DNA of 64,000 nucleotides from Fredinandcohnia onubensis (GTDB taxonomy: Bacteria; Bacillota; Bacilli; Bacillales; Bacillaceae_L): assembly GCF_031181385.1 (NCBI RefSeq), contig NZ_JAPSKV010000001.1, positions 372,001 through 436,000 of the forward strand, given 5' to 3'. The notes beneath the pieces are model-generated. The model was given only the letters and a program-made list of their open reading frames with translations, did no database searches and was not told where the DNA came from. Shown piece after piece: positions 23,542 through 45,261 of this stretch (its first letter is position 1; each line of letters starts with the position of its first letter). A program made the translations under genes and the position numbers.

Positions 23542-24399
23542 ATGCCAAAGACAGAGAACGTAAACCCTCTTTTAATTATTACATCTGTATATAACTCGCT
23601 TACGAAAACAGAACAAAAGGTAGCGGATTATATTATGGAAAACCACAAGGAAGCTGTCTATTCTTCTGTTACCGATTTAGCGGAAGTGGTAGGGGTTGGA
23701 GAAACGACTGTTTTGCGCTTTTGTAGAAAACTAGGATACCGTGGATTTCAAGAATTTAAATTGTCTGTCGCTCAAAACCTGATGGAAGTTGATGAACAAG
23801 TATATGGAAAGATTGAGGAAAATGATCCCTTTGATGTAATCGCCAAAAAGATAGCAAATCAAAATGTAAGTGCTTTAAATGATACTGTTGCACTTCTACA
23901 AGATCAGACAATCCAGACGGCAATTGAAAAGATTAATAGTGCCAAAAAGATCTATTTCTTCGGGGTGGGTTCTTCTGGTTTCACAGCCTTAGATGGCAAA
24001 CATCGATTTATGAGGCTGGGCTATGATACAGAACATGTTTCCGATTCACACATCATGTCAATGACTGCTTCGTTATTAGGAGAAGAGGATTTAATTATTG
24101 CTTTATCTTCATCAGGAAGCACAAAGGACGTCGTCGATGCGATAGAAATTGCAAAGAAGAATCATGCCTTTATCATCTGTATTACAAACCAGGCGAGATC
24201 ACCGATTACAAAATATGCGGATTTAATTCTACTAGCTGCAAGCAAGGAATCCCCATTTGAGGGTGGAATTTTCTCTTCCAAGATTGCTCAGCTTTTACTA
24301 TTAGATGTTCTCGCGACTAATGCAGCTATTAAGAATAAAGAACAGGCATTTAGAGCGATAAAGAGTACAGCGGAATCGGTCCTTGATAAATTGTACTAA
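23542..24399 (+). CDS. MurR/RpiR-family transcriptional regulator
   Basis: 285 residues. N-terminal HTH_6 domain (about 1-75: TEQKVADYIMEN, VGVGETTVLRFCRKLGYRG). The C-terminal SIS domain (about 115-255: KIYFFGVGSSG, IALSSSGSTKDVVDA) binds phosphosugars. Such regulators control amino-sugar and muropeptide pathways, for example MurR. As first gene of the cluster, and with NanE and a ROK kinase downstream, its effector is most likely ManNAc-6-P, GlcNAc-6-P or a related sugar phosphate (inference). A nearby inverted repeat at 25101-25122 is a candidate target. Confidence 0.92.
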   Translation: MPKTENVNPLLIITSVYNSLTKTEQKVADYIMENHKEAVYSSVTDLAEVVGVGETTVLRFCRKLGYRGFQEFKLSVAQNLMEVDEQVYGKIEENDPFDVIAKKIANQNVSALNDTVALLQDQTIQTAIEKINSAKKIYFFGVGSSGFTALDGKHRFMRLGYDTEHVSDSHIMSMTASLLGEEDLIIALSSSGSTKDVVDAIEIAKKNHAFIICITNQARSPITKYADLILLAASKESPFEGGIFSSKIAQLLLLDVLATNAAIKNKEQAFRAIKSTAESVLDKLY

Positions 24400-24426
24400 C
24401 TCAACGAATAGAAAAAGGTGAAAATC

Positions 24427-25023
24427 ATGGTTTCTTCAAATAACAAGCTATTTGAGGTTCTCGAATATATAGTGGATTTGGTTCTATTAAACTTTCTATT
24501 TATTATATGTTCACTTCCTCTCGTAACTGTATACCCTGCCTTTGTTGCATTGGTGGGGGCGATTAAATCTACATCAGAAGAGGAGCCGCTACCTGCATGG
24601 AAAATGTTTTTTAAGCTATTTATTCAGTATTTAAAAAAAGGGATGAAAATCTGGTTCGTTCTTCTTATTGTTTCAATCGTCATCATAGGAGACATTTTTG
24701 CCTCCTTTTATTTACCAAATGAGTTACAGAATTTTCTGCTTCCGTTTAATATCATTATGATTCTTTTATTTTTCGGGGTATTAAGCTATCTTACAAAACT
24801 GTTTATCTTGGGTGAATATCGTTTTAAACCATTAGTGATTCAGAGTTTTGTACTATTCTTTAGGAAACCATTTAAGCCTTTACTCATCGTCATGATCAAT
24901 ACAATGATTGTGATTCTATCAGTCTACTTGAGATTTGTTCCTTTTTTAATTTCCTTCAGCCTTCTTGCGTTTACGTACTATTTTGTCATGATGGCAAGAG
25001 ATTATGACGCGGAGAATAGTTAG
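24427..25023 (+). CDS. YesL-like DUF624 membrane protein
   Basis: 198 residues with four to five hydrophobic helices and the DUF624 pattern near the N-terminus (LFEVLEYIVDLVLLNFLFI). These proteins accompany CUT1 sugar ABC transporters in Bacilli, as yesL does in B. subtilis. Their precise role is not known. The ATG at 24427 is used because AAAGGTG sits just upstream; the GTG at 24418 is part of that site. Confidence 0.82.
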   Translation: MVSSNNKLFEVLEYIVDLVLLNFLFIICSLPLVTVYPAFVALVGAIKSTSEEEPLPAWKMFFKLFIQYLKKGMKIWFVLLIVSIVIIGDIFASFYLPNELQNFLLPFNIIMILLFFGVLSYLTKLFILGEYRFKPLVIQSFVLFFRKPFKPLLIVMINTMIVILSVYLRFVPFLISFSLLAFTYYFVMMARDYDAENS

Positions 25024-25100
25024 ATTAAAATAAAAAATGGAGATTTTTTTATTTTTTAATAAAAAAGGTGGATTTAATCTCCAAAAGGTGTTACATTTCT

Positions 25101-25135: not shown

Positions 25136-25228
25136 CAAAAAAGGGTTTTGAAGTCTAGTAGGGGGTACACAAAGAGAATTACTATTAGAGATCAAAATTC
25201 AAAAAAATCCAAATGAGGTGGGGAAAAA

Positions 25229-26515
25229 ATGAGTAGATTCAAAAAAGTACTATCCGTAGCAATGGTGTTTTTACTTGTTTTAGGTGTCTTAGCTGCATGT
25301 AGTTCTGAAGATTCAGGCACAAAGGATTCAGGCTCAGATAAAGCAAAAGGCGGGGACGAAGAGACAACAGTTGAATTTTGGACAATTTCGCTTCAACCAA
25401 CATTTAATGATTATTTCAATGATCTTATTGCGAAATATGAAGAAGAAAATCCAAATGTAAAAATCGATTGGAAGGACTTCCCTTATGATGCAGTACAGAA
25501 CAAATTATTAACTAGTATTGCAAGTAAGAAAGCTCCTGACGTAGTTAACTTAAATACAGTTATGGCTCACCAAATGGCGTCAAAAGGTGCCTTAGTAGAT
25601 TTCAATCAGACGTTAACCGATGAGCAAAAGGGTATTTACTTTGAAGGAATCTATGATTCTACTGTCCAAGGTGATGGTGCATATGCACTTCCATGGTATA
25701 CAGGTATTCCGGTTCTTTATATCAATAAGTCATTAGCGGAAAAAGCAGGTTTGGATCTAAATAATCCACCACAAACAAAAGAAGAGCTAGCAGCATGGGG
25801 TAAGCAAGTTGCAGACAAAACAGATTCTTTTGGATACGTATTCACAATGGAAACTCGCTCAATCCTTGAAGAAGGTTTCAAAATTGTAGAAGGCGATAAA
25901 GCAATCTTCAATAACGATGAAGTAAAAGATTATATCCAAGGCAATATCGATTTAATCGAAGCTGGGGTTATTCCAAAGGATATTCCGAACTTTAGTAAGC
26001 AGGTTGAGCTTTTTGGTAGTGAACAAGTAGGGATGATTATCTCAAGTTCTTCATTTATTAACCAATTAAAAACAGCTTCACCAGATGTATATGAAAATAC
26101 AATCGCGGTTCCAGCACCAGTAGGAAAAGCGGGCATTCGTTTTACAAACACGATGAATCTAGTTGTTCCTAAAGAATCTAAGAATGTAGATGCTGCAGCA
26201 GCATTTGCACATTATGTAACAAATGATGCGAATCAATTAGCATTCTCTAAAGTAGCAAACACACTTCCATCTACTAAAGAAGCTGCGAAGGATGAACACT
26301 TCTATAAAAATGATGGAACATTAGAAGGACAAGCGTTAACTGCATCTGTTGAAAGCTTAGACAAAGCAACAGATTTCTACCTTGGTGTTGAAAACGCAGG
26401 CGATGTAGACAGCGCAATCAATAAACATCTACAAAATATCTACATCAATGATCAAGACCTTGATGCAGAGCTTGAAGCAGCTGAGAAAGAAGTTAATGAT
26501 ATTTTAGCTCGTTAA
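25229..26515 (+). CDS. Sugar ABC transporter substrate-binding lipoprotein (CUT1 type)
   Basis: 428 residues. Lipobox LAAC with Cys24, an S/D/G/K linker, then the SBP_bac_1 fold (TVEFWTISLQPTFNDYF, KAPDVVNLNT, ALPWYTGIPVLYIN). It captures an oligosaccharide outside the membrane and hands it to the two permeases downstream. The 240-bp gap after it carries a stem-loop, as often seen where the binding protein must be made in excess. The ligand is probably an amino-sugar oligosaccharide, judged from the enzymes of the cluster. Confidence 0.93.
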   Translation: MSRFKKVLSVAMVFLLVLGVLAACSSEDSGTKDSGSDKAKGGDEETTVEFWTISLQPTFNDYFNDLIAKYEEENPNVKIDWKDFPYDAVQNKLLTSIASKKAPDVVNLNTVMAHQMASKGALVDFNQTLTDEQKGIYFEGIYDSTVQGDGAYALPWYTGIPVLYINKSLAEKAGLDLNNPPQTKEELAAWGKQVADKTDSFGYVFTMETRSILEEGFKIVEGDKAIFNNDEVKDYIQGNIDLIEAGVIPKDIPNFSKQVELFGSEQVGMIISSSSFINQLKTASPDVYENTIAVPAPVGKAGIRFTNTMNLVVPKESKNVDAAAAFAHYVTNDANQLAFSKVANTLPSTKEAAKDEHFYKNDGTLEGQALTASVESLDKATDFYLGVENAGDVDSAINKHLQNIYINDQDLDAELEAAEKEVNDILAR

Positions 26516-26528
26516 TATATGAAAATTG

Positions 26529-26755: not shown

Positions 26756-27655
26756 ATGGGAAAGAAAAGAGCCCACAGTTATAGCAGATTCAACGAGGTA
26801 CAAACTGCATGGCTTTTTATGGCGCCAGGGTTGATATTACTTGCTCTATTCACCTTTTGGCCGATTATTTTCAGTCTTCCTTTGGCATTTACGAACTATT
26901 CGGTTATAGGAGAAACATCGTTCGTAGGACTGGACAACTTTAAACGTGCATTTTCTGACGTTGATTTTATTGCTTCGCTTAAAAACTCTCTACTTTATAT
27001 GATTATTGTGCCTTTTATCCAAATTATCTCCATCTTAATGGCTATTCTAGTAAATCGAAAAATGGTAGGAATTAAGTTTTTCAGAACAGCTTATTATATT
27101 CCAGTTGTTACATCAATGGTTGCTGTTGCCATTATCTGGGGTTGGTTGATGAGTTCAAACGGAGTTCTCAACTATCTCTTAATGTCAATTGGAATATTAG
27201 ATGAAAAAGTGAATTGGTTATCGGATAAAGATACCGCTCTATGGGCCCTTATGTTTATCACCTTATGGAAGGGCTTAGGTTATTATATGATGATTTATCT
27301 TGCTGGCCTACAAGCAGTCCCAACCGATTGTATTGAGGCAGCAAGAATCGATGGCGCTAGTAACTGGCAAATCATTAGTAAGATTACTATTCCGTTATTA
27401 AAGCCATATGTATTTTTATGTACGTTAGTTTCCTTAATGGCAGCGATTCGAGTGTTTGATGAGGTATTCGTATTAACGTCTGGTGGACCAGGTAATGCAA
27501 CTTTAACAAGTAGTGTCTATATCTACCAGCAGGGATTCGAACAATTTGAGTTTGGCTATTCATCTGCACTAGGATTAGTGGTAAGTTTCATTATCATGTT
27601 CTTCAGTATTTTCGTCTTCCTGTTTAACAAGAAGGGTGGTGTAAATCCATATTAA
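26756..27655 (+). CDS. Sugar ABC transporter permease (MalF-like)
   Basis: 299 residues, six transmembrane helices. The EAA loop reads IEAARIDGASNWQIISKITIP near residues 190-215, and the C-terminus has TSGGPGNAT, typical of CUT1 permeases. Start ATG at 26756 with TTAGGAGGG upstream. It pairs with the next gene, whose start is 1 base after the stop. No ATPase gene is in the cluster, so a shared MsmX-type ATPase must energise it (inference from Bacillus CUT1 systems). Confidence 0.94.
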   Translation: MGKKRAHSYSRFNEVQTAWLFMAPGLILLALFTFWPIIFSLPLAFTNYSVIGETSFVGLDNFKRAFSDVDFIASLKNSLLYMIIVPFIQIISILMAILVNRKMVGIKFFRTAYYIPVVTSMVAVAIIWGWLMSSNGVLNYLLMSIGILDEKVNWLSDKDTALWALMFITLWKGLGYYMMIYLAGLQAVPTDCIEAARIDGASNWQIISKITIPLLKPYVFLCTLVSLMAAIRVFDEVFVLTSGGPGNATLTSSVYIYQQGFEQFEFGYSSALGLVVSFIIMFFSIFVFLFNKKGGVNPY

Positions 27656-27656
27656 T

Positions 27657-28502
27657 ATGGATGAACCTATGAAAAATACGAATCTATTTAAAAAAATTGT
27701 CAGTAAAACAATCGTTTATGTGTTGTTAATCTTATTTGCCATCTTCATGATGGGGCCATTTCTTTGGCTAATCAGTGTGTCACTCATGCCTGGTAAAAAT
27801 ATTTTTGCTTTTCCACCTGCAATACTGCCAACTTTTATTGACTTTAAAAACTATATAGAAGTTTGGGAGTATATGGATTTTCTTAAATATATTTGGAACA
27901 CCGTGATCATCACCTTCTTAGGTGTCACATTAAGTATTATATTTAGTGCTTTAACAGCATATCCGTTAGCTATTTTCAATTTTAAAGGAAGAAATTTCAT
28001 TTTCATGTTACTCGTATCGACAATGATTATTCCTGCAGCTGCAGCACTTGTTGTTAACTATTTAACAATTAATAATCTGGGGTTAATTAATACGTTTACC
28101 GGGGTCGTCCTTCCAACGTTGGTCTCTGTATTTAACGTCTTCCTCTTTAGACAAGCATTCATGGGGATTCCAGGCGATATCAGGGATTCTGGAAAAATGG
28201 ACGGCGCTTCCGAATTCCGGATTTGGGTTCAATTAATGATGCCAATGATCAAACCAGCAGTAGCAGTTGTGGGCTTGTTTGAATTTATGGCGAACTGGAA
28301 TAGTTTCCTGTGGCCAATCATTGTACTGGATACAGAAAAATACCCATTAGCTTCAGCATTAAGCTTTTTAAATGGTCAGTTCTCCTATAACTTTGGGTGG
28401 ATTGCTGCAGGTACAGTAATCTCAGTAATACCAATCATATTCGTGTTCTTATTCACTCAGAAATATTATATGGAAGGACTTGCAGGAGCGGTTAAAGGAT
28501 AA
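27657..28502 (+). CDS. Sugar ABC transporter permease (MalG-like)
   Basis: 281 residues, six transmembrane helices, EAA loop IRDSGKMDGASEFRIWVQLMMP and a C-terminal YYMEGLAGAVKG typical of MalG-like subunits. The start may be the ATG at 27657 or the ATG four codons later. Neither has a strong ribosome binding site, so translation is probably coupled to the upstream permease. Confidence 0.94.
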   Translation: MDEPMKNTNLFKKIVSKTIVYVLLILFAIFMMGPFLWLISVSLMPGKNIFAFPPAILPTFIDFKNYIEVWEYMDFLKYIWNTVIITFLGVTLSIIFSALTAYPLAIFNFKGRNFIFMLLVSTMIIPAAAALVVNYLTINNLGLINTFTGVVLPTLVSVFNVFLFRQAFMGIPGDIRDSGKMDGASEFRIWVQLMMPMIKPAVAVVGLFEFMANWNSFLWPIIVLDTEKYPLASALSFLNGQFSYNFGWIAAGTVISVIPIIFVFLFTQKYYMEGLAGAVKG

Positions 28503-28544: not shown

Positions 28545-30116
28545 ATGTATAAAATTGCTTACATCCCACTAGACGAACGTCCATGTAACTATGACTTCCC
28601 AAGCCTCCTAACAGGGTGGGACAAGGGGACAGGTCCCTCGTCCCACGGTGAAGTGAATCTCGTACGACCAGATTTGAGTCTGATGGGGGATAAAAAAACA
28701 CCTGGAAATACGGAAAAGATTTGGGAATGGCTGTACCAGGAAGCAGTGAATGCAGACGGTCTCATTCTATCAATCGATACATTGTTATATGGCGGAATCA
28801 TTCCGTCTAGACTGCACGATTTAACATTGGATGATTGCAGAGATGTGTTAGCGAGGCTTTCACGAATTAAAGAAGTTAATCCAGATGTAAAAATATACGC
28901 ATTCAACTTAATCATGAGATGTCCGAAATATTCAAGCAGTGATGAAGAACCGGACTATTACGAGGATTGGGGAAGTGAAATCTTCCAATATGGCAGATTG
29001 CATCACTTACTTTCTGCCAATCTTGCATCTGAAGAAGAACAAAAACAGTACGAAGAAATTAAACAACAGCTTCCAATAGAGGTTGTAGATGACTATCTAT
29101 CTCGCAGAAAAGTCAATGTTGAAGTAAACAAGCTTGCACTAGAATTTGTAAGTACTGGAACGATTGATTTTATGATCATTCCACAAGATGATTCTGCACC
29201 TTACGGGTGGACGGCGATCGACCAGCAGGAGGTAAGGGGTGCGATTGCTTCTCGTAATCTTGAGTTAGATGTATACATGTATCCAGGAGCTGACGAGGTA
29301 GGGTGTACGATGCTAGCAAGAATGGTCAATAGCTTTAAAGGGAAAAGACCATTGGTCTATCCAGTTTTCTCAAGTACACAAGGCCCTTCTGTCACACCTT
29401 TATATGAAGATCGCCCTTTAATGGAGACTCTGAAATATCAAATTTTAGCTGCAGGTGGACTGATTGCTTCAAGTCTTGCTGAAGCTGATTTTGCTTTATT
29501 TTTGAATTCACCTGTAGAGACAATGATGGAGGCTGCCTATCAGGATAACTTAAGTACAAAATATCAGGTGAATCGTAACTTAATTGATTTTGTTGAGCAG
29601 CTCGAATTTACAGTGAATGAAAGAAACATTCCATGTGTGGTGGCCGATATCGCATTTGCAAACGGGTCAGATTTAGGCCTACTCAAGCTATTAAAAAGGA
29701 AAAACCTTCTATTTAAAATAGCGGGGTACGCTGGTTGGAATACGAGCTCGAATACACTTGGAACATGCATTGCACAAGGGATGTTCTATCATGTTTATGG
29801 AAGTACACAAACTCATATGGATTTTCTAGCACTACGCTATGTCGAAGATGCGGGATATTGTAGCTCAGTCAGAAAAAATGTCACAAATAACATCCTGCCA
29901 GAGCTAGGCTATGACTATTTCCTTGTTGACGGAAAACGCGGAAAGGTTTCTGAAATTGTGCAGGAACAATTAACGGAGTTTATAAAAGAAAACCTTAGCG
30001 ATGAAGAAAACGAACTACGAATTACAGATTGCTACATGCCGTGGAGCCGAATGTTTGAAGTCGGCTTAAATGTTGAACATATCCGGGTCGGAGGGACAGG
30101 TTCCTCGTCCCTGTAA
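28545..30116 (+). CDS. DUF4127 family protein with REP-derived in-frame insert
   Basis: 523 residues, predicted cytosolic. The N-terminus IAYIPLDERPCNYDFP and the later GDKKTPG and LSIDTLLYGGIIPSR blocks identify the DUF4127 family, whose reaction is unknown. Residues about 22-36 (including GWDKGTGPSSHG) are encoded by a complete REP-like repeat at 28615-28650, inserted in frame between PSLL and the conserved V-RP-LSLMGDKKTP region. The C-terminal residues VGGTGSSSL come from another copy. The gene is otherwise intact. AAAGGGAG precedes the ATG. Position between the transporter and an FAD oxidoreductase suggests a step on the imported glycan. Confidence 0.82.
   Translation: MYKIAYIPLDERPCNYDFPSLLTGWDKGTGPSSHGEVNLVRPDLSLMGDKKTPGNTEKIWEWLYQEAVNADGLILSIDTLLYGGIIPSRLHDLTLDDCRDVLARLSRIKEVNPDVKIYAFNLIMRCPKYSSSDEEPDYYEDWGSEIFQYGRLHHLLSANLASEEEQKQYEEIKQQLPIEVVDDYLSRRKVNVEVNKLALEFVSTGTIDFMIIPQDDSAPYGWTAIDQQEVRGAIASRNLELDVYMYPGADEVGCTMLARMVNSFKGKRPLVYPVFSSTQGPSVTPLYEDRPLMETLKYQILAAGGLIASSLAEADFALFLNSPVETMMEAAYQDNLSTKYQVNRNLIDFVEQLEFTVNERNIPCVVADIAFANGSDLGLLKLLKRKNLLFKIAGYAGWNTSSNTLGTCIAQGMFYHVYGSTQTHMDFLALRYVEDAGYCSSVRKNVTNNILPELGYDYFLVDGKRGKVSEIVQEQLTEFIKENLSDEENELRITDCYMPWSRMFEVGLNVEHIRVGGTGSSSL
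28615..28650. repeat. REP-like unit inside the DUF4127 coding sequence
   Basis: GGTGGGACAAGGGGACAGGTCC then CTCGTCCCACGG. Palindromic over its whole length and in frame with the gene. Confidence 0.85.
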
Positions 30117-31763: not shown

Positions 31764-32945
31764 ATGGAACAACCAAACATATTATGGGTTGACTTTTTAG
31801 CCAATGGTTCTCGATTATTAGACCCAGAAAAAATGAAAGAGTTAATCAAACATGCCGTTAGATGCGAGATTACACATCTTGTAGTTGATGCAAAAATTCC
31901 ATATGGATTTACAACGTACCCAAGTGAGTTTGCCTATCATGTAAGTGAATTGAAGGATGAGCAATATCACGATTGGAAAGGTCGAGACTTCCTTCAAGAA
32001 ATGATTCATCATGCAAAAGGGTCCGGGATAAAAGTGATCGCCAATGTCGATGTATTTGCAGAAGGAAATGGAATCGGTAAAGAAGGAATGGTCTATGCCA
32101 AGCCTGAGTGGCAAGTAGTTCACTATGACCAGGCCCTTTCAAATATGCCGACAGCTGCGGAAAATCACAATGATCCAACGGTATTTGTGAATCCGATTCA
32201 TCCAGAAGTAGAGGCTTATGAACTAAACATCGTTCAAGAAATTGTAAGTAACTATGAAATAGATGGTGTTGTTTTAGACAGATGCCGTTATCCGAACATT
32301 TATGGAGATTTTAGTAGTTTGAGTCGTTTGAAATTTGAAGCTTATATCGGTCAAAAAGTGGAAAACTGGCCGCAGGACATTATGACTGTTGAGGATAAGA
32401 AACCTGTATTTGGTCGCCTTTTTCCGAAATGGGCGGAGTTCCGTGCGAAAAATATTAAAAATTTTGTTCAAAAAGCGAAAAATGTGGTTAAAACAAGGAA
32501 TTCAGATTTGATTTTCACGATCTATGTGGGTTCGTGGTATCCATTGTATTATAACGAAGGCGTCAACTGGGGAAGTGAGACCTATCACCCTTCATTCGAG
32601 TGGACATCTGATACGCACAATACGTCTGGATATGCCGAGGAATTTGATTTTATCATGACAGGCTGCTATTACCCAGAGGTAACGATTGAGGAAGCGTTAG
32701 TCAACGAAAGACCAGCAACTTGGTATAGTGTTGAGGGCGCGATTAAGATGAGTAAGGAAGCAATCAACGGACAAATTCCTGTGATTGCTAGCTTATATTT
32801 AAAAGATTATACCGATAATGTTGAACAATTTAAGAAGGCTGTGCAGCTATGTAAGGAAAAATCAAATGGAGTTATGCTGTTTGACACAGTGTATTTAGAG
32901 GATTATCAGTGGTGGGATGAGCTAGAAAAATCCATTAGTAAGTAA
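31764..32945 (+). CDS. Cytosolic GHL10-type glycoside hydrolase-like protein
   Basis: 393 residues without a signal peptide. One TIM-barrel domain: ILWVDFLANGSRL, THLVVDAKIPYG, VIANVDVFAEGNGIG, IDGVVLDRCRYPNIYGDFS and YVGSWYPLYYNEGVNWG. It shares these blocks with the secreted protein at 19177-22059, so they are paralogues acting on the two sides of the membrane. GHL10 proteins are classed with alpha-amylase-like hydrolases, but few substrates are known. It ends 14 bases before nanE. Confidence 0.8.
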   Translation: MEQPNILWVDFLANGSRLLDPEKMKELIKHAVRCEITHLVVDAKIPYGFTTYPSEFAYHVSELKDEQYHDWKGRDFLQEMIHHAKGSGIKVIANVDVFAEGNGIGKEGMVYAKPEWQVVHYDQALSNMPTAAENHNDPTVFVNPIHPEVEAYELNIVQEIVSNYEIDGVVLDRCRYPNIYGDFSSLSRLKFEAYIGQKVENWPQDIMTVEDKKPVFGRLFPKWAEFRAKNIKNFVQKAKNVVKTRNSDLIFTIYVGSWYPLYYNEGVNWGSETYHPSFEWTSDTHNTSGYAEEFDFIMTGCYYPEVTIEEALVNERPATWYSVEGAIKMSKEAINGQIPVIASLYLKDYTDNVEQFKKAVQLCKEKSNGVMLFDTVYLEDYQWWDELEKSISK

Positions 32946-32959
32946 TTGGAGTGGATGAC

Positions 32960-34626: not shown

Positions 34627-34645
34627 CTATAAGGGGCTAAATACA

Positions 34646-35386: not shown

Positions 35387-37251
35387 GGATTCATTTTACA
35401 GGTGATTTAGCCGAGGTGCTGGATGGGGTTGGAATTCTTTGTGATGATTTGGGATTAGAAGTGGCGGAGGACGGATACCCGATTGAAGTGGTAAATCGTC
35501 AAGGTCCCTTGGTCGTGACGAACAAACAGATCATTTTTGATAAGAGGATACATTTTTTCAGAGGGTTAGGGCTATGGCTTCAACATATGGAAAAGAACAA
35601 TGAGTTCCATCTAACTGAAGAGCCTCAATTTGAAACGAGTGGAGCGATGATTGATGTATCTAGAAACGCGGTTCTAACAGTAGACGGCATTAAAATTTTG
35701 CTACGTAAAATGGCCGTAATGGGCCTTAACATGGCAATGGTTTATACAGAAGATACGTATGAGGTTCCAGAAGTGCCTTATTTCGGATATATGCGTGGAA
35801 GATATACGGAAAAGGAAATTCGTGAGTGTGATGAGTATGCATTTCAATTAGGGATTGAAATGATACCGTGTATCCAAACATTGGCGCATTTAAAGGAAGC
35901 CCTAAAGTGGGGCTATGCGAATGAAATTAAGGATACAGATGATATACTGCTCGTCGGTGAACCGAAAACCTACGAGTTTTTAAAACATTTGATTGAGGCA
36001 GCTGTTAGACCGTATCGGACAAAAAGGATTCATATCGGAATGGATGAAGCCCTGCAGTTAGGTCGCGGTAAGTATATGGAGAAAAATGGGTCTCATGACC
36101 GTTTTGAAATTATGAACAAGCACCTTCAGGAAGTTGTATCAATTACCGAGGAATTCGGCTTGGAACCAATGATTTGGAGTGACATGTATTTTCGTTTAGC
36201 TTCTAAAAACGGGAATTATTATGACTTTGATGAGACGTTATTGGAACAAGTTAAACAATCTATACCAAATGTCCAAATGGTGTACTGGGATTACTATCAT
36301 GCCGAAGAGGAATTTTATGAGGGAATGTTAAATACCCATAAACAAATCGTATCGGATCCACTTTTTGCGGGCGGTATATGGACCTGGAATGGAATCTCCC
36401 CGAACTATGCGAGGGCCTTTCGAAATTCGGAGGCCGCATTAAATGCCTGTAGAAAAACAGGAATTAAAGAAGTATTTACAACAATGTGGGGTGACAATGG
36501 AGCTGAAACCCCAATCCAAACTGCGCTTCCAGGACTGCAATTGTTTGCTGAGCACACATATCATCAAGAGGTGAGCCGAGAACATTTGGAAGAACGTTTT
36601 TACTACTGCACAGGTTATCAGTTAAATGATTTCTTTTTGTTAAACCAAATGGATGAGATCCCAGGAGTCATGGAGGATAACTTATATTCCTCAAATCCGT
36701 CTAAGTTCTTGCTTTGGCAGGATGTGTTAATGGGACTGTTTGATGAAAATATAAAAGGATTGCCGATTGCTGACCATTACAAAGGTTTAGTGGAAAAGCT
36801 AAAGGAAGCTAAGGAACGCAATCTAGGTGCTGAAAAGTTGTTTCACTTTTATGAGCAACTAGCAAAAGTCTTAAGTGAAAAGGCTGAGTTGGGAATTGAG
36901 CTAAAGCTTGCCTATGATAACGGGGATAAAACCGGAGTAAAGGTGTGTCTTAAAAAGGTAGAGCTTCTTAGAGTAGAAATTGATGCTTTACGAAAGGCGC
37001 ACAGAGATGTATGGTTTACCGTCAATAAACCGTTTGGATGGGAAGTTCTAGACATGCGATACGGCGGCTTGCTAACACGGATCGAAACAGCAGAATATCG
37101 ATTAAATCAATGGCTGAGCGGTAACATTTCAACACTGGCAGAACTAGAAGAAATGCGACTTCGTTACGACGGTCCAGAACAATTCCCTGAAAATGTAACT
37201 CTAGGTAGAGGCGAAACCTACAACCGAATCGCCACAGCAAGCGCGACATAA
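35383..37251 (+). CDS. GH20-like exo-beta-N-acetylhexosaminidase
   Basis: 622 residues, cytosolic. The catalytic pair is in HIGMDE (residues 217-222), with Asp221 and Glu222 as in the HxGxDE motif of GH20, where the Asp orients the substrate N-acetyl group. Other blocks: GAMIDVSRNAVLTVDG, IPCIQTLAHL, MIWSDMYFR, WDYYH, GGIWTWNG and TTMWGDNGAE. A helical C-terminal domain (about 455-600) resembles that of intracellular GH20 enzymes of Firmicutes. It would release terminal HexNAc from imported oligosaccharides. The start overlaps the esterase stop by 4 bases, and AAGGAGG is 7 bases upstream. Confidence 0.86.
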   Translation: MRIHFTGDLAEVLDGVGILCDDLGLEVAEDGYPIEVVNRQGPLVVTNKQIIFDKRIHFFRGLGLWLQHMEKNNEFHLTEEPQFETSGAMIDVSRNAVLTVDGIKILLRKMAVMGLNMAMVYTEDTYEVPEVPYFGYMRGRYTEKEIRECDEYAFQLGIEMIPCIQTLAHLKEALKWGYANEIKDTDDILLVGEPKTYEFLKHLIEAAVRPYRTKRIHIGMDEALQLGRGKYMEKNGSHDRFEIMNKHLQEVVSITEEFGLEPMIWSDMYFRLASKNGNYYDFDETLLEQVKQSIPNVQMVYWDYYHAEEEFYEGMLNTHKQIVSDPLFAGGIWTWNGISPNYARAFRNSEAALNACRKTGIKEVFTTMWGDNGAETPIQTALPGLQLFAEHTYHQEVSREHLEERFYYCTGYQLNDFFLLNQMDEIPGVMEDNLYSSNPSKFLLWQDVLMGLFDENIKGLPIADHYKGLVEKLKEAKERNLGAEKLFHFYEQLAKVLSEKAELGIELKLAYDNGDKTGVKVCLKKVELLRVEIDALRKAHRDVWFTVNKPFGWEVLDMRYGGLLTRIETAEYRLNQWLSGNISTLAELEEMRLRYDGPEQFPENVTLGRGETYNRIATASAT

Positions 37252-37254
37252 ATC

Positions 37255-37340: not shown

Positions 37341-38399
37341 GTGCAAGAGCAGTTGCAGTGGTACAGTCCAAAAGAAAAGCCTTTTCGTTTAAGTGGGTTT
37401 GCGTGGTTTAATGAGAAAGAACGATATCGGCGACTTCCTGTAAATCCGGAATATAATATTCCGCCACGTGTGGATGAATTAGCGGATCATACTTCCGGTG
37501 GACAAATTAGTTTTCGGACAAATGCTACAAAGCTTGAAATAAAAGTAAAGCTAACGGATGCGGCTTACATGGGGCATATGACGGCCTCTGGTCAATGTGG
37601 TTTTGATGTATACGTGGGGGAACCTGGGCAACAACAGTATTATACAACTGCGATTCCATCACTACTCGATCAATCTTATGAGAAAACGGTATGGGATTTT
37701 ACCAATAGTAATCAGCACTCGAGTGAGCATTTCAGGGAGGTAACGTTGTATTTTCCTTTGTATCAGGGGGTAGAAGAAGTTTTAATCGGAATTAATCCAA
37801 GCGCAGTAATTAAACCGCCTACTCCGTATTCTTCAGATAAACGAGTGATTTTCTACGGTACATCCATTACGCAGGGGGCTTGTGCGAGTAGGCCTGGTAT
37901 GTCGTACACAAATATCCTTAACCGAAGATTCAATTTTGAATTTATTAATCTAGGATTCTCCGGAAGTGGGAGAGGTGAGCAAGGAGTGGCCTTAACCATC
38001 AGAGAAATCGAACGGCCAGCCAGCTTTGTTCTTGATTATGAGGCAAATGTTTCATACAAGGAATATAAAGGGACACTACATCCTTTTATCGAAACCTATC
38101 GGGAAGTTCATCCGGAAGTTCCTATTGTCATAGTGTCAAGAATTCCATTTGTACAGGATAAAGAAATTGGAGAGTACGAGGATTATCAAAACCGTAGAGA
38201 GTACTCGAAATCAACTGTGGAAAAATTAAAGCAACAAGGCGATAAAAATATTTCATTTATAGATGGATCTACATTGTTAGGGGAATACTGGCATGAATGC
38301 ACAGTCGATGGAATCCATCCGAATGACCTAGGATTCATGGAAATGGCAAATCGTATGGAGAGTGCGTTTGCTTTTTTAAAGACCCATAAAGGTGATTAG
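37341..38399 (+). CDS. Two-domain SGNH hydrolase (SsfX3-like carbohydrate esterase)
   Basis: 352 residues, no signal peptide. N-terminal beta-sandwich (about 10-160) as in SsfX3-type enzymes, then an SGNH domain: block I FYGTSITQGACAS with the catalytic Ser, LGFSGSGRGEQG (Gly block), and DGIHPNDLGF with the catalytic Asp and His. It probably removes acetyl groups from sugars. The start is GTG at 37341 with GGGGGGA upstream; the nearby ATG is out of frame. It is one of three esterases in the cluster. Confidence 0.87.
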   Translation: MQEQLQWYSPKEKPFRLSGFAWFNEKERYRRLPVNPEYNIPPRVDELADHTSGGQISFRTNATKLEIKVKLTDAAYMGHMTASGQCGFDVYVGEPGQQQYYTTAIPSLLDQSYEKTVWDFTNSNQHSSEHFREVTLYFPLYQGVEEVLIGINPSAVIKPPTPYSSDKRVIFYGTSITQGACASRPGMSYTNILNRRFNFEFINLGFSGSGRGEQGVALTIREIERPASFVLDYEANVSYKEYKGTLHPFIETYREVHPEVPIVIVSRIPFVQDKEIGEYEDYQNRREYSKSTVEKLKQQGDKNISFIDGSTLLGEYWHECTVDGIHPNDLGFMEMANRMESAFAFLKTHKGD

Positions 38400-38451: not shown

Positions 38452-39402
38452 TTGTTATATTTCGAACAACAAATCAAAGAATATGAAACATATAAACCAC
38501 CTTTAACAAAGACGGAGGACTTCCATACATTCTGGGAAGATACGTTAAAAGAGTCTGAGCAACTCCCTTTACAAAGCACTCTAGTAAGAGAAGAATATCC
38601 GATTAAGCAGATCGACGCTTATAAGGTTACCTACCAAGGGTTTGGTGGAACACCAATAAGAGGGCATTATATTTTACCGAAAGAAGCTAAGGAAAACATG
38701 CCTTGTATCATTTTGTACCATGGCTATGGCATGGATAAGGGGTCCATCTCAAATTATATGAAATGGGTCATACAGGGATATGCTGTTCTAGCGATTGATA
38801 ATCGTGGGCATGGTGAGAGTAGCGACAACTCTGGCTATATGACTGGTACAAATGGAACGTGGGTGTTACATGGTATTTTAGACAAATCCGAATATTATTA
38901 TCTCAAAGTATACATCGATAATAAACGCGCAATCGATTTTCTGTTTACAAGACCTGAAATCGATAAAAGTCGGATTTGTATTTATGGTGGAAGCATGGGT
39001 GGAGGAATCGCCCTAGCCGTGGCAGCCTTAGATAATCGGCCAAAATTAGTAATAGCTGATGTGCCGAATATGTGTAATATTGAACTAGCTATTCAGCTGA
39101 AGCTAGAAGGATCTCTCGTAAGACTTGAAGGCTACTTTGCAAGATATCCTGAAAAGACACATCAAATTTTCAATAACCTAACTTACTTTGATAATCTGAA
39201 TTTTGCCTCCATGATAAAAAGTAAGACGAGAGTAACAATTGCGTTGAAAGATCCGGTTTGTCCAGCCCAATCAATTTTTGGCGTATATAATCACATCCAA
39301 GCAGAGAAGAGTTATGTCGTTTATCCGTTTACTGGACATAACGTCGGGGGCATAAGCTCGCATCTAGACGATACGCTTAAGTATGTGAACGAGAATTTGT
39401 AA
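38452..39402 (+). CDS. Acetyl xylan esterase / cephalosporin-C deacetylase family (AXE1)
   Basis: 316 residues, cytosolic alpha/beta hydrolase of the CE7 family. HGYG oxyanion region, DNRGHGESSD, nucleophile elbow GGSMGGGIAL (RGxSQ is replaced here), DPVCP with the catalytic Asp, and C-terminal FTGHNVGG with the catalytic His. CE7 enzymes deacetylate small oligosaccharides inside the cell. The start is TTG at 38452 with GGGAGGG 6 bases upstream. It is the last gene before a terminator hairpin at 39447. Confidence 0.88.
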   Translation: MLYFEQQIKEYETYKPPLTKTEDFHTFWEDTLKESEQLPLQSTLVREEYPIKQIDAYKVTYQGFGGTPIRGHYILPKEAKENMPCIILYHGYGMDKGSISNYMKWVIQGYAVLAIDNRGHGESSDNSGYMTGTNGTWVLHGILDKSEYYYLKVYIDNKRAIDFLFTRPEIDKSRICIYGGSMGGGIALAVAALDNRPKLVIADVPNMCNIELAIQLKLEGSLVRLEGYFARYPEKTHQIFNNLTYFDNLNFASMIKSKTRVTIALKDPVCPAQSIFGVYNHIQAEKSYVVYPFTGHNVGGISSHLDDTLKYVNENL

Positions 39403-39446: not shown

Positions 39447-39490
39447 AAGGCACAATAAGTGGCTAAAACCACTCATTGTGCCTTATTTGT
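39447..39490 (+). terminator. Terminator at the end of the intracellular gene set
   Basis: AAGGCACAATAAGTGG pairs with CCACTCATTGTGCCTT (one mismatch), followed by ATTTGTGTTT. Same hairpin family as at 16615, 18875, 45533 and 46649. It separates the AXE1 gene from the wall-protein gene. Confidence 0.75.
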
Positions 39491-39615: not shown

Positions 39616-39620
39616 AAATT

Positions 39621-39720: not shown

Positions 39721-42700
39721 ATGTCTAGTTTTTGGAAAAAAGGTCTGATTGGTTTATTTAGTATTTTCTTAGTTTTGCAGCCAGTCGTCCCATTGTACCC
39801 AGCTACTCACGAGGTAGTTGCCGCTGAAAATCAGTCATCAGCAGTAGGGACCATACTTAATGAACAGGAAATAACCATTACACCGGGTGTCACACAAACA
39901 AAGGTACACACCTCTACAAGTAGAGGGGATCAACGGATTTCCATGTTGGAAGTTGATCTTTCAAATGAATTTCTTTCTATTGAAACAGGGATTGCGAACA
40001 ATAGCTATCCAGGGATGCAACCTTTAACGAAGCAGGCCCAGTTAGTTTCCAAGGAAGGCCATCAAGTTGTGGCTGGCGTGAATGGAGACTTTTTTAATAC
40101 GAGTACTGGTGATGTTTCGGGTCTTTTCATTCACAAGGGTCAGCTATTACATTCAAGCACAAGACCTGCGTTTGGGGTTACTGCAGATGGACATCCGATT
40201 ATTGGTACTCCAGATATCCATCACCTTGCAAAGGTCGCTGAGCAAACCTTCAATGTTACTGGAGTGAATACTAGCCGTGGTACTAACAATCTCATTATCT
40301 TTACTCCTTCCCATGGTGCTTCAACCTCTACAAATCCATACGGTGCTGAAGTGATATTAGAAAATGTCGAGGGTGATGTTACTAAGCCAGGAACAGTAAA
40401 AGCAACGGTAAAGGAACTTAGAAATGGAGTTGGAAATACTCCATTAGAAGAAGGAACTATTGTATTATCAGGACATGGAACAGCAAGAAGCTTTTTAGTA
40501 GACCATTTTTCAGAAGGAGCCCAAGTAGAAATTACTTTAGGCTTAAGTGAACCTTGGAATCAAGCGGTAGAAGCAATTGGTGGAAGTCCAATTCTCGTTG
40601 AATCTTCTAAACTAGCAAACCTTGAAAGTAACGCTTTTAACAATGCTACTGCACCAAGAACTGCTGTGGGGATAAAAGCAGATGGTAGTGTATTCTTTTT
40701 AGTTATTGATGGACGTCAGCCTGGATATAGCGAGGGTGTTACCATTCATGAATTAGCTCAAATCATGCTTGAACTAGGTGCGGTTGAAGCGGTGAACCTT
40801 GATGGTGGTGGTTCTTCAACCTTGGGAGCAAGACAACCTGGTGATAGTTCATTATCGGTTGTTAATACGCCTTCAGATGGTTCAGAACGAAATATTGCTA
40901 ATTCAATTTTTATTGTAAGTTCTGCACCAAAAGGAACAATCTCGAGTTTATTTGTTCGTCCTACAAATCCATTGGTGTTAGCTAATAGTCAATTGTCTTT
41001 CGAGGCAAGTGGTCTAGATATGTCGTATCAACCAGTTGAAGTAGCAGAGCCAATTGCTTGGTCTGTGGAGGAAGGGCTAGGAATGATTTCGGAAAATGGC
41101 GTGTTTACTGCAGGTTCCGAGGCAAAATCAGGCACAGTAACAGCTACTGCTGGTTCGGTAACAGGAAATAGTACGATTAAAGTAGTAGATACAATAGATG
41201 AATTGCAGCTACCACAGTCAGAGGTAACGCTAGATCGTGGAGGAGAATTTGATTTAGCAGCTAAGGCAATTAAAGATGGAAAACAAGTCACAATCGACCA
41301 AGACCAGCTTCATTGGGAAGTAGAAAATGGAATTGGTTCAGTAGATGAAAATGGTTATTTTACCGCTACGGATAAAAGTGCAATCGGTACTGTAACGGTT
41401 TCGTATGGTGATGTAACAGATACAATCACAATTGAAGTTGGTAAAATGCCAATTATTGTAGAGGATTTTGAAAATGGGATTGATCACTGGACGAAGAGTG
41501 GAGCACGTTATAATACCGTAAATATCCGCCAAACAACGTATCCTGAACCTGCTCGTTTCGGAGACCATGCACTTCAACTTGACTATGATTTTATCGGAAC
41601 TCAAGGAACTTCTGGTGCATATGCTTATCCGAAGACGGATATTGAGCTAGAGGGTTACCCTGAAACAATTGGTATGTGGGTATATGGAGATGGAAAACGT
41701 CACTGGTTACGTGCTCAATTAAAAGACGCTGATGGGAATGCATTCCCAGTAGACTTTGTGAATGAAGTAGATTGGGTAGGATGGAAATATGTTGATGCAA
41801 AGATTCCAACTGGAAAAACGACACCACTGAAACTCGATCTAGCAGTACGATATATGGAAACAAGTAATAATAAGAAAGATGCTGGAACCATTTACATTGA
41901 TAATATCCGTGCTGTATATGGAGAAACCAATGATGACTTAACAAATCCTAGCTTATCGGATATTTCTCCAGTAGATGGTACAGAAGTAACAGATAATATG
42001 GTACAGATTTCTGCGATTGCAAAAGATGATGCAGAAGGTACTGGAATTAACGCCAATCGTATTCAAATGATGATTGATGGAATGGCGGTTACACCAACTT
42101 TTAACGAGTCAACTGGCGAAATAAGTTATGTTCCTGAACATCCATTCGCTGATGGCATTCACTATGTGAATCTTGTCGTACAGGATAACTTTGGGAACCC
42201 AATTGAACAAACATGGAGCTTTACAGTAAATACGGGTAGTGCATCATTGTACATGGAAACTCCTGAGAGGGTTTATGCTGGTAATGAATTTGAAGTAACC
42301 ATTTCAGCAAAAGAATTACAAGATATGTATGGTGCAAAGCTGGCTTTTGATTATGATCCAAGTAAGATCGAAATTATGGACCAAGATGAAAATGCGGAAG
42401 GTATTCAAATTGGTGTTAGTAAAAAGGTTAATAAAGCAACGATTGTAACTAATCAAGTGAATGTTGAAGATGGAAAAATCTCGATTGAAGCCAGTGATCT
42501 TGATAAAATTGGCAACGTGGAGGAAGATGAAAAGCTATTTACAATTGTTGCAAAAGTAAAATCAGATGCCACAGAGGACGTGTCAATTGATTGGGCTAAA
42601 GGGAATATCCGCTTACTAGCTAACAAAGAATTGTCAAACTCAATTAATCTACCTGATTTTAAGAGAGAGATTAAGTATGGTCTAAATCTTGAAGTGGGTG

Positions 42701-45261
42701 TGATGGCAATCGGTATGACTACTGAAATCAAGGTTACGAATGAAAAGGGTGAGCCTGTATTAGGTGCTGGTATTTTCGTAAAGAGCTATATGGATCAATC
42801 AGCGTTAGTAAAGAGCGATACTGCCTTCATCTACAAGGAAAAGAATAACCAATCTGAAATCATAGCAACAGCTAAGGAATATGACAAATTCCTCGTCGTT
42901 GAAGTAGATTCCGATTGGGTGAAAGTGAAAACAAGAGATGGCGGAAATGGCTGGATTGAATTAAAGGATGTTACCATTTCTATGTGGGGGAATCCAATTG
43001 GAATAACGAATTCAAAAGGAGTCCTAACAACGAACGACGTAACACTAGCAGAAGGGAATTACCTTCTTCAAGCGAAAAAGGGAACGGATTATAGTGTCGT
43101 TACTTCCGGAACAGTAAAACCGCTTCTCGGAAAAATGACGCCTGAACAGATTGTGTTAACATGGGAGCAGAGCCCTAAGACAACGCAAAGCTTTACATGG
43201 AGAACCTCTCCAGAAATTACTGAATCAGTCGTTCAATTAGTAGAGCAAACTGCTTTTACAAGCTTTGAAGCTGAAAATGTACAAGAAATAAAAGGGACAA
43301 GCTTCTTACATGAGACAGATCTTGGTGTAAAACAAATGCATGAAGTCGATGCCGTTAATTTAAAGCCGAATACAACCTATGTGTATCGTGTGGGTGACGG
43401 AACGGAAGCTGGATGGAGTGAATCTGGTACATTTACAACTGAACCAGAAGAGGATGAAGCATTTACATTCTTATTCACTTCAGATACTCAATCTATTGCT
43501 AATGGTACGAATTTAAATGGGTATGGCATTTGGGGTGAAATTTTTGGAAAGTCATTGCAGGAATATCCACATGCGAAATTTATGCTGTTATCTGGTGACA
43601 TTGTAGACTATGGGGACCAGCAGATTCACTGGGAATACTGGTTTGATGCAGCAAAACAATATCTACCAAATATCAATATGGTTCCTGTTCTAGGTAACCA
43701 TGACGTCATTGGTGAAGGTACTGATAATTTTAAAGCGCAATTCCAGTTACCATTAAATGGTCCTGAAGGAGAAATCGAAGAAGCATATTCATTTGATTAT
43801 GGAAACCTGCATTTAGCTGTGCTAAATACAGAAGGCGATTTGGAGAAACAAGCACAATGGCTAATCGAAGACATGAAAAACAGTGAAAAGGATTGGAAAA
43901 TTGTGTCATTCCACCGATCTCCATACCATAGTCATGAAACAAGAGGTAGTGAGGATATCCGAAAAGCATGGACAGGAGCTTTTGATGAAGCGGAAATAGA
44001 TCTTGTTTTATCTGGACATGATCATGCATACATGCGTAGTTGGCCATTATACGATGGTAAAATTGTAGAAGAAGGAGAAGGAACAACCTATATTATTGGT
44101 GGTTCAGCAGGCCCTAAGTTCTACGAGATGGGCGACCAAGAATGGATACGTGTAGCGTTTGATGAAAACATTCAAATCTATTCTGGGGTTACAATTGATG
44201 GTAATGAGTTAACGTTCAAAGTAACAACGAGAAATGGTGAGAACGTTGATGCCTTTACAATGGTTAAACCGGAAACACCTGTTGAAAATTCTGGTGACGA
44301 TGATGACAACAATCAAGGTGAAGACCCGGGCACAGGAAATGATGATGACGACAACCAAGGTGAAGACCCAGGCACAGGAAATGATGATGACGACAACCAA
44401 GGTGAAGACCCAGGCACAGGAAATGATGATGACAACAATCAAGGTGAAGACCCGGGCACAGGAAATGATGATGACGACAACCAAGGTGAAAATCCGGGTA
44501 CAGGAATTGATGATGATAATGAAGGTGAAGATCCAGGCACAGGAAATGATGATGATGAATCGGATGGTAAAAGGTCAATAGTATCTGCATATCCTAAAAT
44601 GAACAAAGGGATTGTTACCATTTCAAATGGCTCAGTCGAACAAGTTGCAACATTCGGCACAGTAGCCATTCCATTAAAAAATGAAGAAAACATCAATTTA
44701 TCATTAACTGAAGAACAAGTTAAGTTATTAAGACAAAAAAATGCATCAATAGAAGTGACACTTTCTGGAACTAAAGTGGCTATTCCAGCTATCAATTTTG
44801 TAAATCAAGATAAAGCAATAACCATTACATTTACGAAGCTTCCAGAAGTGAGTGGTGCTGTAAGTGCAGTCTATGATTTTACAATTATTCAAGGGAATAA
44901 AGAAATAACAGATTTCCAAGCTCCAGTAACGTTAAGCTTCTCAATTGATAAGGTAGAAGATCCAAATACAGCAAAAATCTATTATTATAATGAAACCAAG
45001 AAAAAATGGGAGTTAATAGGTGGAACATATGCAAATGGTTACGTAACTGCCACAACAAACCATTTCAGTGTGTATACTGTATTTGAATCTGACAAAGTGA
45101 ATATAGATGGAGAAGCACCAACTCTAGAAGAAACATCCGATGAGATTGGAAAAGAATTACCTGAAACAGCAACAAATATGCCTACGATATTGGCAATAGG
45201 CATAGTGCTTCTCATTATGGGTGGAACATTTATCATAATTACCAGAAGACGCAAGGCGTAA
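39721..45261 (+). CDS. Wall-anchored fusion of phosphodiester glycosidase (NAGPA) and purple-acid-type metallophosphatase
   Basis: 1846 residues, exported (signal peptide about 1-37). NAGPA domain about 77-400: VNGDFFNTSTGD, RPAFGVTADG, FLVIDGRQPGYSEGVT, NLDGGGSST. Two Ig-like modules (403-577), a carbohydrate-binding-like jelly roll (579-735), another Ig module, a cohesin-like domain (839-974) and an SH3-like domain (1027-1090). Then an FnIII-type phosphatase N-domain (1137-1244) and a calcineurin-like phosphatase (1247-1515) with SGDIVD, GNHD and SGHDHAY metal ligands. A D/G/P-rich spacer of 14-residue repeats follows, then a C-terminal beta domain, LPETA (1813-1817), a membrane segment and RRRKA. 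NAGPA enzymes release GlcNAc from sugar-1-phosphodiesters; the second domain could free phosphate. I chose the ATG at 39721 (GGGGGAG upstream); an upstream open extension runs through REP repeats. Confidence 0.88.
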   Translation: MSSFWKKGLIGLFSIFLVLQPVVPLYPATHEVVAAENQSSAVGTILNEQEITITPGVTQTKVHTSTSRGDQRISMLEVDLSNEFLSIETGIANNSYPGMQPLTKQAQLVSKEGHQVVAGVNGDFFNTSTGDVSGLFIHKGQLLHSSTRPAFGVTADGHPIIGTPDIHHLAKVAEQTFNVTGVNTSRGTNNLIIFTPSHGASTSTNPYGAEVILENVEGDVTKPGTVKATVKELRNGVGNTPLEEGTIVLSGHGTARSFLVDHFSEGAQVEITLGLSEPWNQAVEAIGGSPILVESSKLANLESNAFNNATAPRTAVGIKADGSVFFLVIDGRQPGYSEGVTIHELAQIMLELGAVEAVNLDGGGSSTLGARQPGDSSLSVVNTPSDGSERNIANSIFIVSSAPKGTISSLFVRPTNPLVLANSQLSFEASGLDMSYQPVEVAEPIAWSVEEGLGMISENGVFTAGSEAKSGTVTATAGSVTGNSTIKVVDTIDELQLPQSEVTLDRGGEFDLAAKAIKDGKQVTIDQDQLHWEVENGIGSVDENGYFTATDKSAIGTVTVSYGDVTDTITIEVGKMPIIVEDFENGIDHWTKSGARYNTVNIRQTTYPEPARFGDHALQLDYDFIGTQGTSGAYAYPKTDIELEGYPETIGMWVYGDGKRHWLRAQLKDADGNAFPVDFVNEVDWVGWKYVDAKIPTGKTTPLKLDLAVRYMETSNNKKDAGTIYIDNIRAVYGETNDDLTNPSLSDISPVDGTEVTDNMVQISAIAKDDAEGTGINANRIQMMIDGMAVTPTFNESTGEISYVPEHPFADGIHYVNLVVQDNFGNPIEQTWSFTVNTGSASLYMETPERVYAGNEFEVTISAKELQDMYGAKLAFDYDPSKIEIMDQDENAEGIQIGVSKKVNKATIVTNQVNVEDGKISIEASDLDKIGNVEEDEKLFTIVAKVKSDATEDVSIDWAKGNIRLLANKELSNSINLPDFKREIKYGLNLEVGVMAIGMTTEIKVTNEKGEPVLGAGIFVKSYMDQSALVKSDTAFIYKEKNNQSEIIATAKEYDKFLVVEVDSDWVKVKTRDGGNGWIELKDVTISMWGNPIGITNSKGVLTTNDVTLAEGNYLLQAKKGTDYSVVTSGTVKPLLGKMTPEQIVLTWEQSPKTTQSFTWRTSPEITESVVQLVEQTAFTSFEAENVQEIKGTSFLHETDLGVKQMHEVDAVNLKPNTTYVYRVGDGTEAGWSESGTFTTEPEEDEAFTFLFTSDTQSIANGTNLNGYGIWGEIFGKSLQEYPHAKFMLLSGDIVDYGDQQIHWEYWFDAAKQYLPNINMVPVLGNHDVIGEGTDNFKAQFQLPLNGPEGEIEEAYSFDYGNLHLAVLNTEGDLEKQAQWLIEDMKNSEKDWKIVSFHRSPYHSHETRGSEDIRKAWTGAFDEAEIDLVLSGHDHAYMRSWPLYDGKIVEEGEGTTYIIGGSAGPKFYEMGDQEWIRVAFDENIQIYSGVTIDGNELTFKVTTRNGENVDAFTMVKPETPVENSGDDDDNNQGEDPGTGNDDDDNQGEDPGTGNDDDDNQGEDPGTGNDDDNNQGEDPGTGNDDDDNQGENPGTGIDDDNEGEDPGTGNDDDESDGKRSIVSAYPKMNKGIVTISNGSVEQVATFGTVAIPLKNEENINLSLTEEQVKLLRQKNASIEVTLSGTKVAIPAINFVNQDKAITITFTKLPEVSGAVSAVYDFTIIQGNKEITDFQAPVTLSFSIDKVEDPNTAKIYYYNETKKKWELIGGTYANGYVTATTNHFSVYTVFESDKVNIDGEAPTLEETSDEIGKELPETATNMPTILAIGIVLLIMGGTFIIITRRRKA
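44299..44566 (+). repeat. Coding tandem repeat, 42-bp period
   Basis: About six copies of a 42-bp unit coding for DDDDNQGEDPGTGN, nearly identical at DNA level. It forms the wall-spanning spacer before the LPETA region and is prone to copy-number change. Confidence 0.9.

Follow-up and report, generated by a model that had tools for sequence, protein, structure and literature searches.

A run of same-strand genes in a 64-kb window of the Fredinandcohnia onubensis genome (a 4,259,100-base assembly with a completeness rating of 100%) contains a real, conserved module around a protein of the DUF4127 family, and our literature search found no description of it. We propose that the run is an RpiR-controlled oligosaccharide-utilisation locus for the catabolism of imported, acylated N-acetylhexosamine (HexNAc) oligosaccharides that contain N-acetylmannosamine (ManNAc), with the secondary cell-wall polysaccharides (SCWP) of other Bacilli as their likeliest source. 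We consider this reading plausible and advance it tentatively. It builds on the observed gene content and conservation, a shared operator-like motif, the exclusion of a neighbouring NAGPA gene and the lack of TagA, TagB/F and CsaB matches in the genome, from which we infer the substrate, each catalytic step and the order of steps. The initial annotation of this DNA delimited the module wrongly and over-interpreted it as a pathway that recycles the linkage unit of wall teichoic acid. "The window" denotes the whole 64-kb stretch, and positions are counted from its first letter.

Gene content and conservation of the module

Fifteen open reading frames (ORFs), all on the plus strand, span 23542-45261, and Pfam matches agree with the families to which they had initially been assigned. 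The run opens with an RpiR-family regulator (HTH_6 and SIS domains; 23542-24399) and a DUF624 membrane protein (24418-25023) that is MusI-like and scores under the MusI cut-off. These are followed by a CUT1-type solute-binding protein (SBP; 25229-26515), a lipoprotein by eye, and the CUT1-type permeases 1 (26756-27655) and 2 (27657-28502); no transporter ATPase was matched by Pfam among the fifteen products. The next genes encode the DUF4127 protein, in a form without a signal peptide by eye (28545-30116; Pfam 1.4e-161), an FAD-dependent oxidoreductase (FAD_oxidored, PF12831; 30162-31748; 1.4e-97), a GHL10+DUF4985 enzyme that is cytosolic by eye (31764-32945), the N-acetylmannosamine-6-phosphate 2-epimerase NanE (32951-33652; Pfam 9.7e-72; NCBIfam 315 bits against a cut-off of 189) and a ROK sugar kinase (33748-34626; 1.1e-64). 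A PF00756 esterase (34577-35386), a GH20C-type beta-N-acetylhexosaminidase (35383-37251; GH20 with Glyco_H_20C_C, PF18088, 4.8e-68), an SGNH/GDSL esterase (GxDLY/GDSL; 37341-38399), whose gene few relatives have, and an AXE1 esterase (38452-39402) complete the enzyme genes. No signal peptides were seen by eye in the proteins from DUF4127 through AXE1. The fifteenth gene (39721-45261) encodes a protein with NAGPA, SH3 and purple-acid-phosphatase domains and an LPETA motif near its C-terminus, and lies outside the unit, as set out below.

The core of this gene set recurs around DUF4127 beyond chance. We compared the loci of the best 80 of 474 DUF4127 relatives, many of them from Paenibacillus, by tblastn; some of these loci end at contig ends, so that the counts are lower bounds. 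NanE was found in 66 of the 80 loci, the SBP in 63, the FAD enzyme in 59, RpiR in 53 and ROK in 46 (at 1e-10, where ROK counts are family-level matches), and the rarer neighbours were GHL10 (16/80), GH20 (12/80), DUF624 (9/80) and the PF00756 esterase (9/80). A GH84 enzyme adjoins DUF4127 in 12 of the 80 loci, lying between the permease and DUF4127 where both are complete. Among the 53 loci below 90% identity, NanE occurred in 40, the FAD enzyme in 39 and both in 34, with a median gap of 38 bases between DUF4127 and NanE; the flanking genes at several Paenibacillus loci are mainly housekeeping or regulatory. Of nine genomes of the genus, five have a close form of the cluster, three a divergent form and one neither. 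The divergent cluster (G008, with similar ones in G011 and G012) holds NanE, DUF4127 and the FAD enzyme, and that of G008 additionally an M55 protein (D-aminopeptidase-like), an MR_MLE protein, two GFO/IDH proteins, an AP_endonuc_2 barrel and an MBL protein; these extras clear the Pfam cut-offs but fall short of the NCBIfam ones, M55 and MR_MLE by a wide margin. Across other genomes the core recurs, the NAGPA and SGNH genes are rare and the hexosaminidase varies.

We also surveyed the order, where DUF4127 was matched at 1e-40 in 46 of 299 genomes and 39 of the 40 additional loci were taken, and the class, where a secreted DUF4127 as query gave 13 loci from 398 genomes, nine of them from one genus. 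Loci are called cytosolic-type or secreted-type by whether their DUF4127 best matches that of the window or the secreted one, signal peptides not being the criterion. The 32 cytosolic-type survey loci contained the FAD enzyme in 31 instances, a ROK-family protein in 31, a CUT1 permease in 31, NanE in 25 and CsaB in none. In the 20 secreted-type loci we found the FAD enzyme 16 times, a 230-aa protein 16 times, CUT1 15 times, CsaB twice and NanE not at all. As judged from these gene neighbourhoods, the conserved module is the CUT1 importer, DUF4127, the FAD enzyme, NanE, ROK and RpiR.

The 230-aa protein belongs to a second system, seen at 18 loci, that combines a NanE-like barrel with the FAD enzyme and a secreted-type DUF4127 and, in most cases, CUT1 permeases. 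Its hhalign probability against NanE was 92.7% over 211 columns, in a single comparison of TIM-barrel-like profiles; it had no Pfam match, and the solved-structure search gave no informative relative. Judged by these similarities, the FAD enzyme and DUF4127 recur with NanE or a NanE-like barrel in two arrangements. In the second-system loci inspected by eye, a signal-like N-terminus is present in DUF4127 and absent from the FAD enzyme, so that DUF4127 is probably independent of the FAD product, which would favour a hydrolase. One DUF4127 protein bears an F5/8 type C domain, and at one locus a histidine kinase adjoins the second system.

Candidate operator and boundaries of the unit

Palindromic sites are conserved 5' of RpiR and of the SBP gene in relatives. 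We built a matrix for a candidate RpiR operator from these sites, so that only the matches 5' of the GHL10 gene are independent of it. In the window, sites used in training lie 5' of RpiR (23493-23507, plus strand, with a similar one at 23465) and 5' of the importer (25069-25083, plus strand). The matrix additionally matches 23306-23320 (plus strand), 5' of RpiR, and 19046-19060 (minus strand), 5' of a secreted GHL10-type gene and absent from the training set. In the window, as in five relatives, this secreted GHL10 gene has strong sites 5' of it (p 0.003 to 0.017; all operator p values come from 300 resamples each and are uncorrected). Four Paenibacillus loci also have sites (p 0.007 to 0.09), and the stretch upstream of permease 1 scores as well (p 0.03). 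No significant site was found 5' of the NAGPA gene (p 0.48), 5' of the SGNH, AXE1 and ROK genes (p 0.70 to 0.84) or in three other stretches of the window (p 0.17 to 0.42). Genome-wide, the strict pattern gave 22 hits, of which four fall within 6 kb at the locus, and the reversed control gave 19, so that the scan names no regulon members elsewhere. An intergenic site at C5:11412 precedes a gene judged SpoIID-like by eye.

The secreted GHL10-type protein (19168-22059, plus strand), which by eye has a signal-like N-terminus, matches Pfam GHL10 above its cut-off (3.8e-13) and DUF4985 below it (3.2e-5). It is 31% identical to the cytosolic GHL10 protein over 405 columns, and had been left out of the initial annotation. 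Given the shared candidate operator, we suggest that the unit extends upstream to this gene, whose product is probably the outer glycan-cleaving enzyme of the regulon.

That outer role had been given to the NAGPA protein, which was thought to cut the linkage phosphodiester. Its ORF (1927 aa; NAGPA, Pur_ac_phosph_N and Metallophos domains by Pfam) is longer than the gene, which likely starts at the ATG at 39721, with a ribosome site and a signal-like stretch, 318 bases past the end of AXE1. Four genus relatives retain the block from RpiR to GH20, and none of them has a NAGPA gene next to it; none of eight other genomes with a NAGPA match has that match beside the cluster; among the 80 DUF4127 loci there is one match (tblastn). 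In one genus relative (G005), a 191-aa match (39%) to the phosphatase part lies at the edge of the stretch examined, 10 kb 5' of RpiR, and the best NAGPA relatives in the family (40-41% over about 700 aa) come from three genomes that all lack a DUF4127 match. On this synteny, the boundary is settled: the NAGPA/phosphatase wall protein is outside the conserved unit, and the fifteen genes do not form one unit. We rejected it as the outer enzyme of the cluster, as it is unlinked in relatives and has no operator upstream. The two genes before it are kept unevenly, with SGNH in six and AXE1 in two of the 80 loci and both in G005 alone among the four genus relatives; AXE1-like matches of 30-54% identity occur in 14 of the 32 cytosolic-type survey loci.

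A hairpin between the AXE1 and NAGPA genes (39447-39484) forms 15 pairs as plus-strand RNA, and the 61-base stretch that holds it folds at -22.3 kcal/mol (z -4.8). The scan lists it as terminator-like, with 17 pairs, for the minus strand alone, and the cluster itself contains terminator-like hairpins on the plus strand (26528 and 35306; 17 found in the window scan, 11.7 expected), so that the hairpin does not settle the downstream boundary. NAGPA fused to calcineurin-like surface proteins has been described as the ShfP family (PMC11488536), and the neighbouring protein has the same domain types (NAGPA, Pur_ac_phosph_N and Metallophos), so that its architecture is an already described one; this likeness concerns the neighbour gene, outside the DUF4127 locus. 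A 42-base tandem repeat in that gene (44299-44555; 6.2 copies) encodes an acidic linker.

Elsewhere in the window, a minus-strand protein (22131-23201) has no Pfam match and, by eye, a signal-like N-terminus; six of the 80 DUF4127 loci encode relatives. A 1886-aa surface protein (8961-14621) has Big_2, CARDB and CHB_HEX_C domains and an LPXTG-anchor match below cut-off. Palindromic GGGAC-NN-GTCCC elements number 23 in the 64 kb at no more than one mismatch, against 0.57 expected (for example at 18649, 23415, 30133, 33672, 35354, 37304, 45309 and 46746); several are intergenic within the cluster, and inspection by eye suggests that they lengthen the end of the PF00756 esterase and the false start of the NAGPA ORF.

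Proposed pathway and alternative substrates

In the pathway that we propose, the secreted GHL10 enzyme would cut a HexNAc polymer outside the cell, most likely the ManNAc-N-acetylglucosamine (GlcNAc) secondary cell-wall polysaccharide of other Bacilli, and the CUT1 importer would take up the pieces. Inside, the esterases would deacylate the pieces, beta-GlcNAc would be trimmed by GHL10 together with GH20C (or, in some Paenibacillus, with GH84), and DUF4127 would cleave or unmask the ManNAc-containing part. The ROK kinase would then phosphorylate the HexNAc, NanE would turn ManNAc-6-phosphate into GlcNAc-6-phosphate, its known reaction, and the FAD enzyme would carry out a redox step on an intermediate.

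The individual proteins fit these roles to different degrees. NanE falls within its family, and its Arg, Lys, Asp and Glu positions align with those of a solved NanE, residues whose roles we take to be those familiar from this enzyme. The best solved relative of the ROK protein is named N-acetylmannosamine kinase (5nck, 3.3e-53), and the hexosaminidase falls within the GH20C family, with its D221-E222 pair aligned to the solved enzymes 2epk and 5a69. For GHL10, Cwp19 was the sole solved relative at E 0.01 (4e-4, about 70 residues); structure-database searches confined the solved relatives of the FAD enzyme to its N-terminal nucleotide-binding part and yielded no telling ligand for the SBP. DUF4127 had no solved relative in these searches (best in the profile search E 2). 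Its invariant residues over twelve diverse members include D10, R12, R89, R125, R188, N191, D208, D215, D216, D250, D368 and W398, and we regard it as a candidate glycan hydrolase. Since catalysis by GH20 and GH84 enzymes uses a 2-acetamido group placed opposite the leaving group, beta-ManNAc should resist them and would call for another enzyme. Our candidate for this step is DUF4127, as the gene common to the loci and as one with extracellular forms.

As to the source, pyruvylated secondary wall polymers consist of ManNAc-GlcNAc repeats (PMC6801904) and can carry O-acetyl groups (PMC9487903), a composition that fits NanE, the esterases and the beta-hexosaminidases. In addition, secreted-type DUF4127 genes lie near wall polymer genes in three genomes: in G016, ahead of DUF5693 and CsaB in one run that adjoins genes for SLH-GH18 and SLH-subtilase proteins; in G194, at the head of a run that also includes TagA, a gene judged flippase-like by eye, DUF5693 and CsaB; and in G065, 4.3 kb from CsaB on the opposite strand. 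TagA is also present in two of these CsaB/DUF5693 loci. A bolder generalisation, which we think rather improbable, is that DUF4127 founds a family that opens beta-ManNAc cell-wall polysaccharides. Together with the PF12831 FAD enzyme and a barrel of the NanE fold, it would make up a module assembled at least twice, once from cytosolic DUF4127 and NanE and once from secreted DUF4127 and the NanE-like 230-aa protein. SCWP degradation would then be widespread in Bacillales, and at CsaB loci a DUF4127 paralogue would take part in SCWP synthesis as well.

It is important to point out that several observations weigh against SCWP-derived oligosaccharides as the substrate. CsaB lies within 5 kb in just 3 of 23 secreted-type loci, a count with no random-gene control behind it, so that the link to a ManNAc polymer is suggestive only. 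Eight of the 53 loci below 90% identity have neither NanE nor the FAD enzyme, and NanE is missing from 7 of the 32 cytosolic-type survey loci. GH20 and GH84 were both unseen in the 39 order-survey loci, and GH20 in the divergent genus clusters, so that a hexosaminidase is not a constant part. The M55 and MR_MLE genes of the divergent form could point to peptidoglycan peptides, a paper that names GHL10 describes a starch-acting enzyme (PMC9967864), and the FAD step is the least understood part of the scheme.

General scavenging of HexNAc oligosaccharides (chitin-like, N-glycan-like or capsule fragments), in which NanE would serve a minor ManNAc part or a different HexNAc-6-phosphate, is a possible though unlikely alternative. 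It would suit the solved GH20 relatives, which carry the name N-acetyl-beta-D-glucosaminidase, and a hexosaminidase that varies between loci (GH20, GH84 or none seen); however, NanE is the steadier component, with 66 of the 80 loci against 24 for the hexosaminidases.

Somewhat more doubtful is the catabolism of peptidoglycan glycan, in the form of denuded, O-acetylated GlcNAc-N-acetylmuramic acid (MurNAc). RpiR regulators and O-acetyl esterases would fit such a substrate, as would the M55 and MR_MLE genes of G008, and DigH, like Cwp19, we take to be a GHL10 member. Both act on the glycan of peptidoglycan: Cwp19 is a lytic transglycosylase (PMC6016235) and DigH hydrolyses denuded glycans (PMC12288456). 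However, the only MurNAc-6-phosphate etherase over cut-off in the genome lies outside the cluster, at C5:15270, and etherases over cut-off are present in all nine genus members searched; with no etherase in the cluster, we rejected a MurNAc pathway as its sole role. Moreover, we know of no role for NanE in MurNAc breakdown.

Recycling of the teichoic-acid linkage unit, as initially annotated, is very unlikely. Wall teichoic acid is joined to MurNAc through ManNAc-beta-1,4-GlcNAc-1-phosphate, and NAGPA-type enzymes free GlcNAc from GlcNAc-alpha-1-phosphodiesters; the NAGPA protein would thus cut the GlcNAc-1-phosphodiester and the ABC system would import ManNAc-GlcNAc. NanE, a ROK protein resembling ManNAc kinases and a beta-hexosaminidase do fit this disaccharide, and linkage units of other bacteria would be usable. 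What survives is the fit of import, esterases, hexosaminidase, kinase and NanE to ManNAc/GlcNAc catabolism, not the linkage unit as source, as the NAGPA gene is unlinked in relatives and has no operator. Specifically, TagA/WecG (PF03808) and TagB/F (PF04464) had no match at 0.001 in the F. onubensis genome, nor had CsaB, with a positive Bacillus subtilis control in each case; this speaks against the cell's own wall as source, and we rejected its own teichoic acid. The expected tracking with TagA was not seen either: 190 of the 299 order genomes have TagA, among them 31 of the 46 that carry DUF4127 and 159 of the 253 that do not (Fisher p 0.62), and two of the four order genomes with the close form of the cluster lack it. 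Two UDP-GlcNAc 2-epimerases are encoded in surface-sugar loci of the same genome (C5:290000-329999). One is above the WecB cut-off, beside FnlA-like and WbcJ-like genes (both under NCBIfam cut-offs), which makes a supply of UDP-ManNAc possible, and the other, of NeuC type, has NeuB- and LegC-type genes as neighbours.

Sialic-acid or sialoglycan catabolism is barely credible: NanE and ROK are sialate-pathway enzymes, but Pfam found no lyase or sialidase among the fifteen products, and a separate locus (C5:510000-530000) holds a sialidase-like BNR protein, a NanA-like lyase (255 bits, under the curated cut-off of 281), NanE, ROK, GH2, a GDSL esterase and galactose genes. We consider that locus a candidate sialoglycan locus and rejected sialic acid as the input of the cluster, as had the initial annotation, which had already noted the missing lyase.

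Significance and comparison with known systems

Our literature search found no paper naming DUF4127 and, in the parts of the papers available, no description of ManNAc-GlcNAc wall polysaccharide breakdown by such a locus. If our reading is right, the locus would offer a defined gene set with two uncharacterised enzymes for studying the breakdown of Gram-positive wall polymers, and a candidate operator and regulator to examine.

The enzymes Cwp19 and DigH (the latter presumably) share the GHL10 family with the locus, but the window enzymes combine GHL10 with DUF4985, one copy is cytosolic, and their glycan may be another than peptidoglycan. Sialate-type NanE-NanK loci resemble it in that the window, too, has NanE, scoring above the curated cut-off, with a ROK protein nearest to ManNAc kinase; in place of a lyase or sialidase, the window cluster has DUF4127, the FAD enzyme, GHL10 and a hexosaminidase. 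Overall, the locus has the layout that we know from CUT1 oligosaccharide-utilisation loci as a class, namely a regulator, an SBP, two permeases, intracellular hydrolases and a kinase, to which it adds two near-constant uncharacterised enzymes and NanE.

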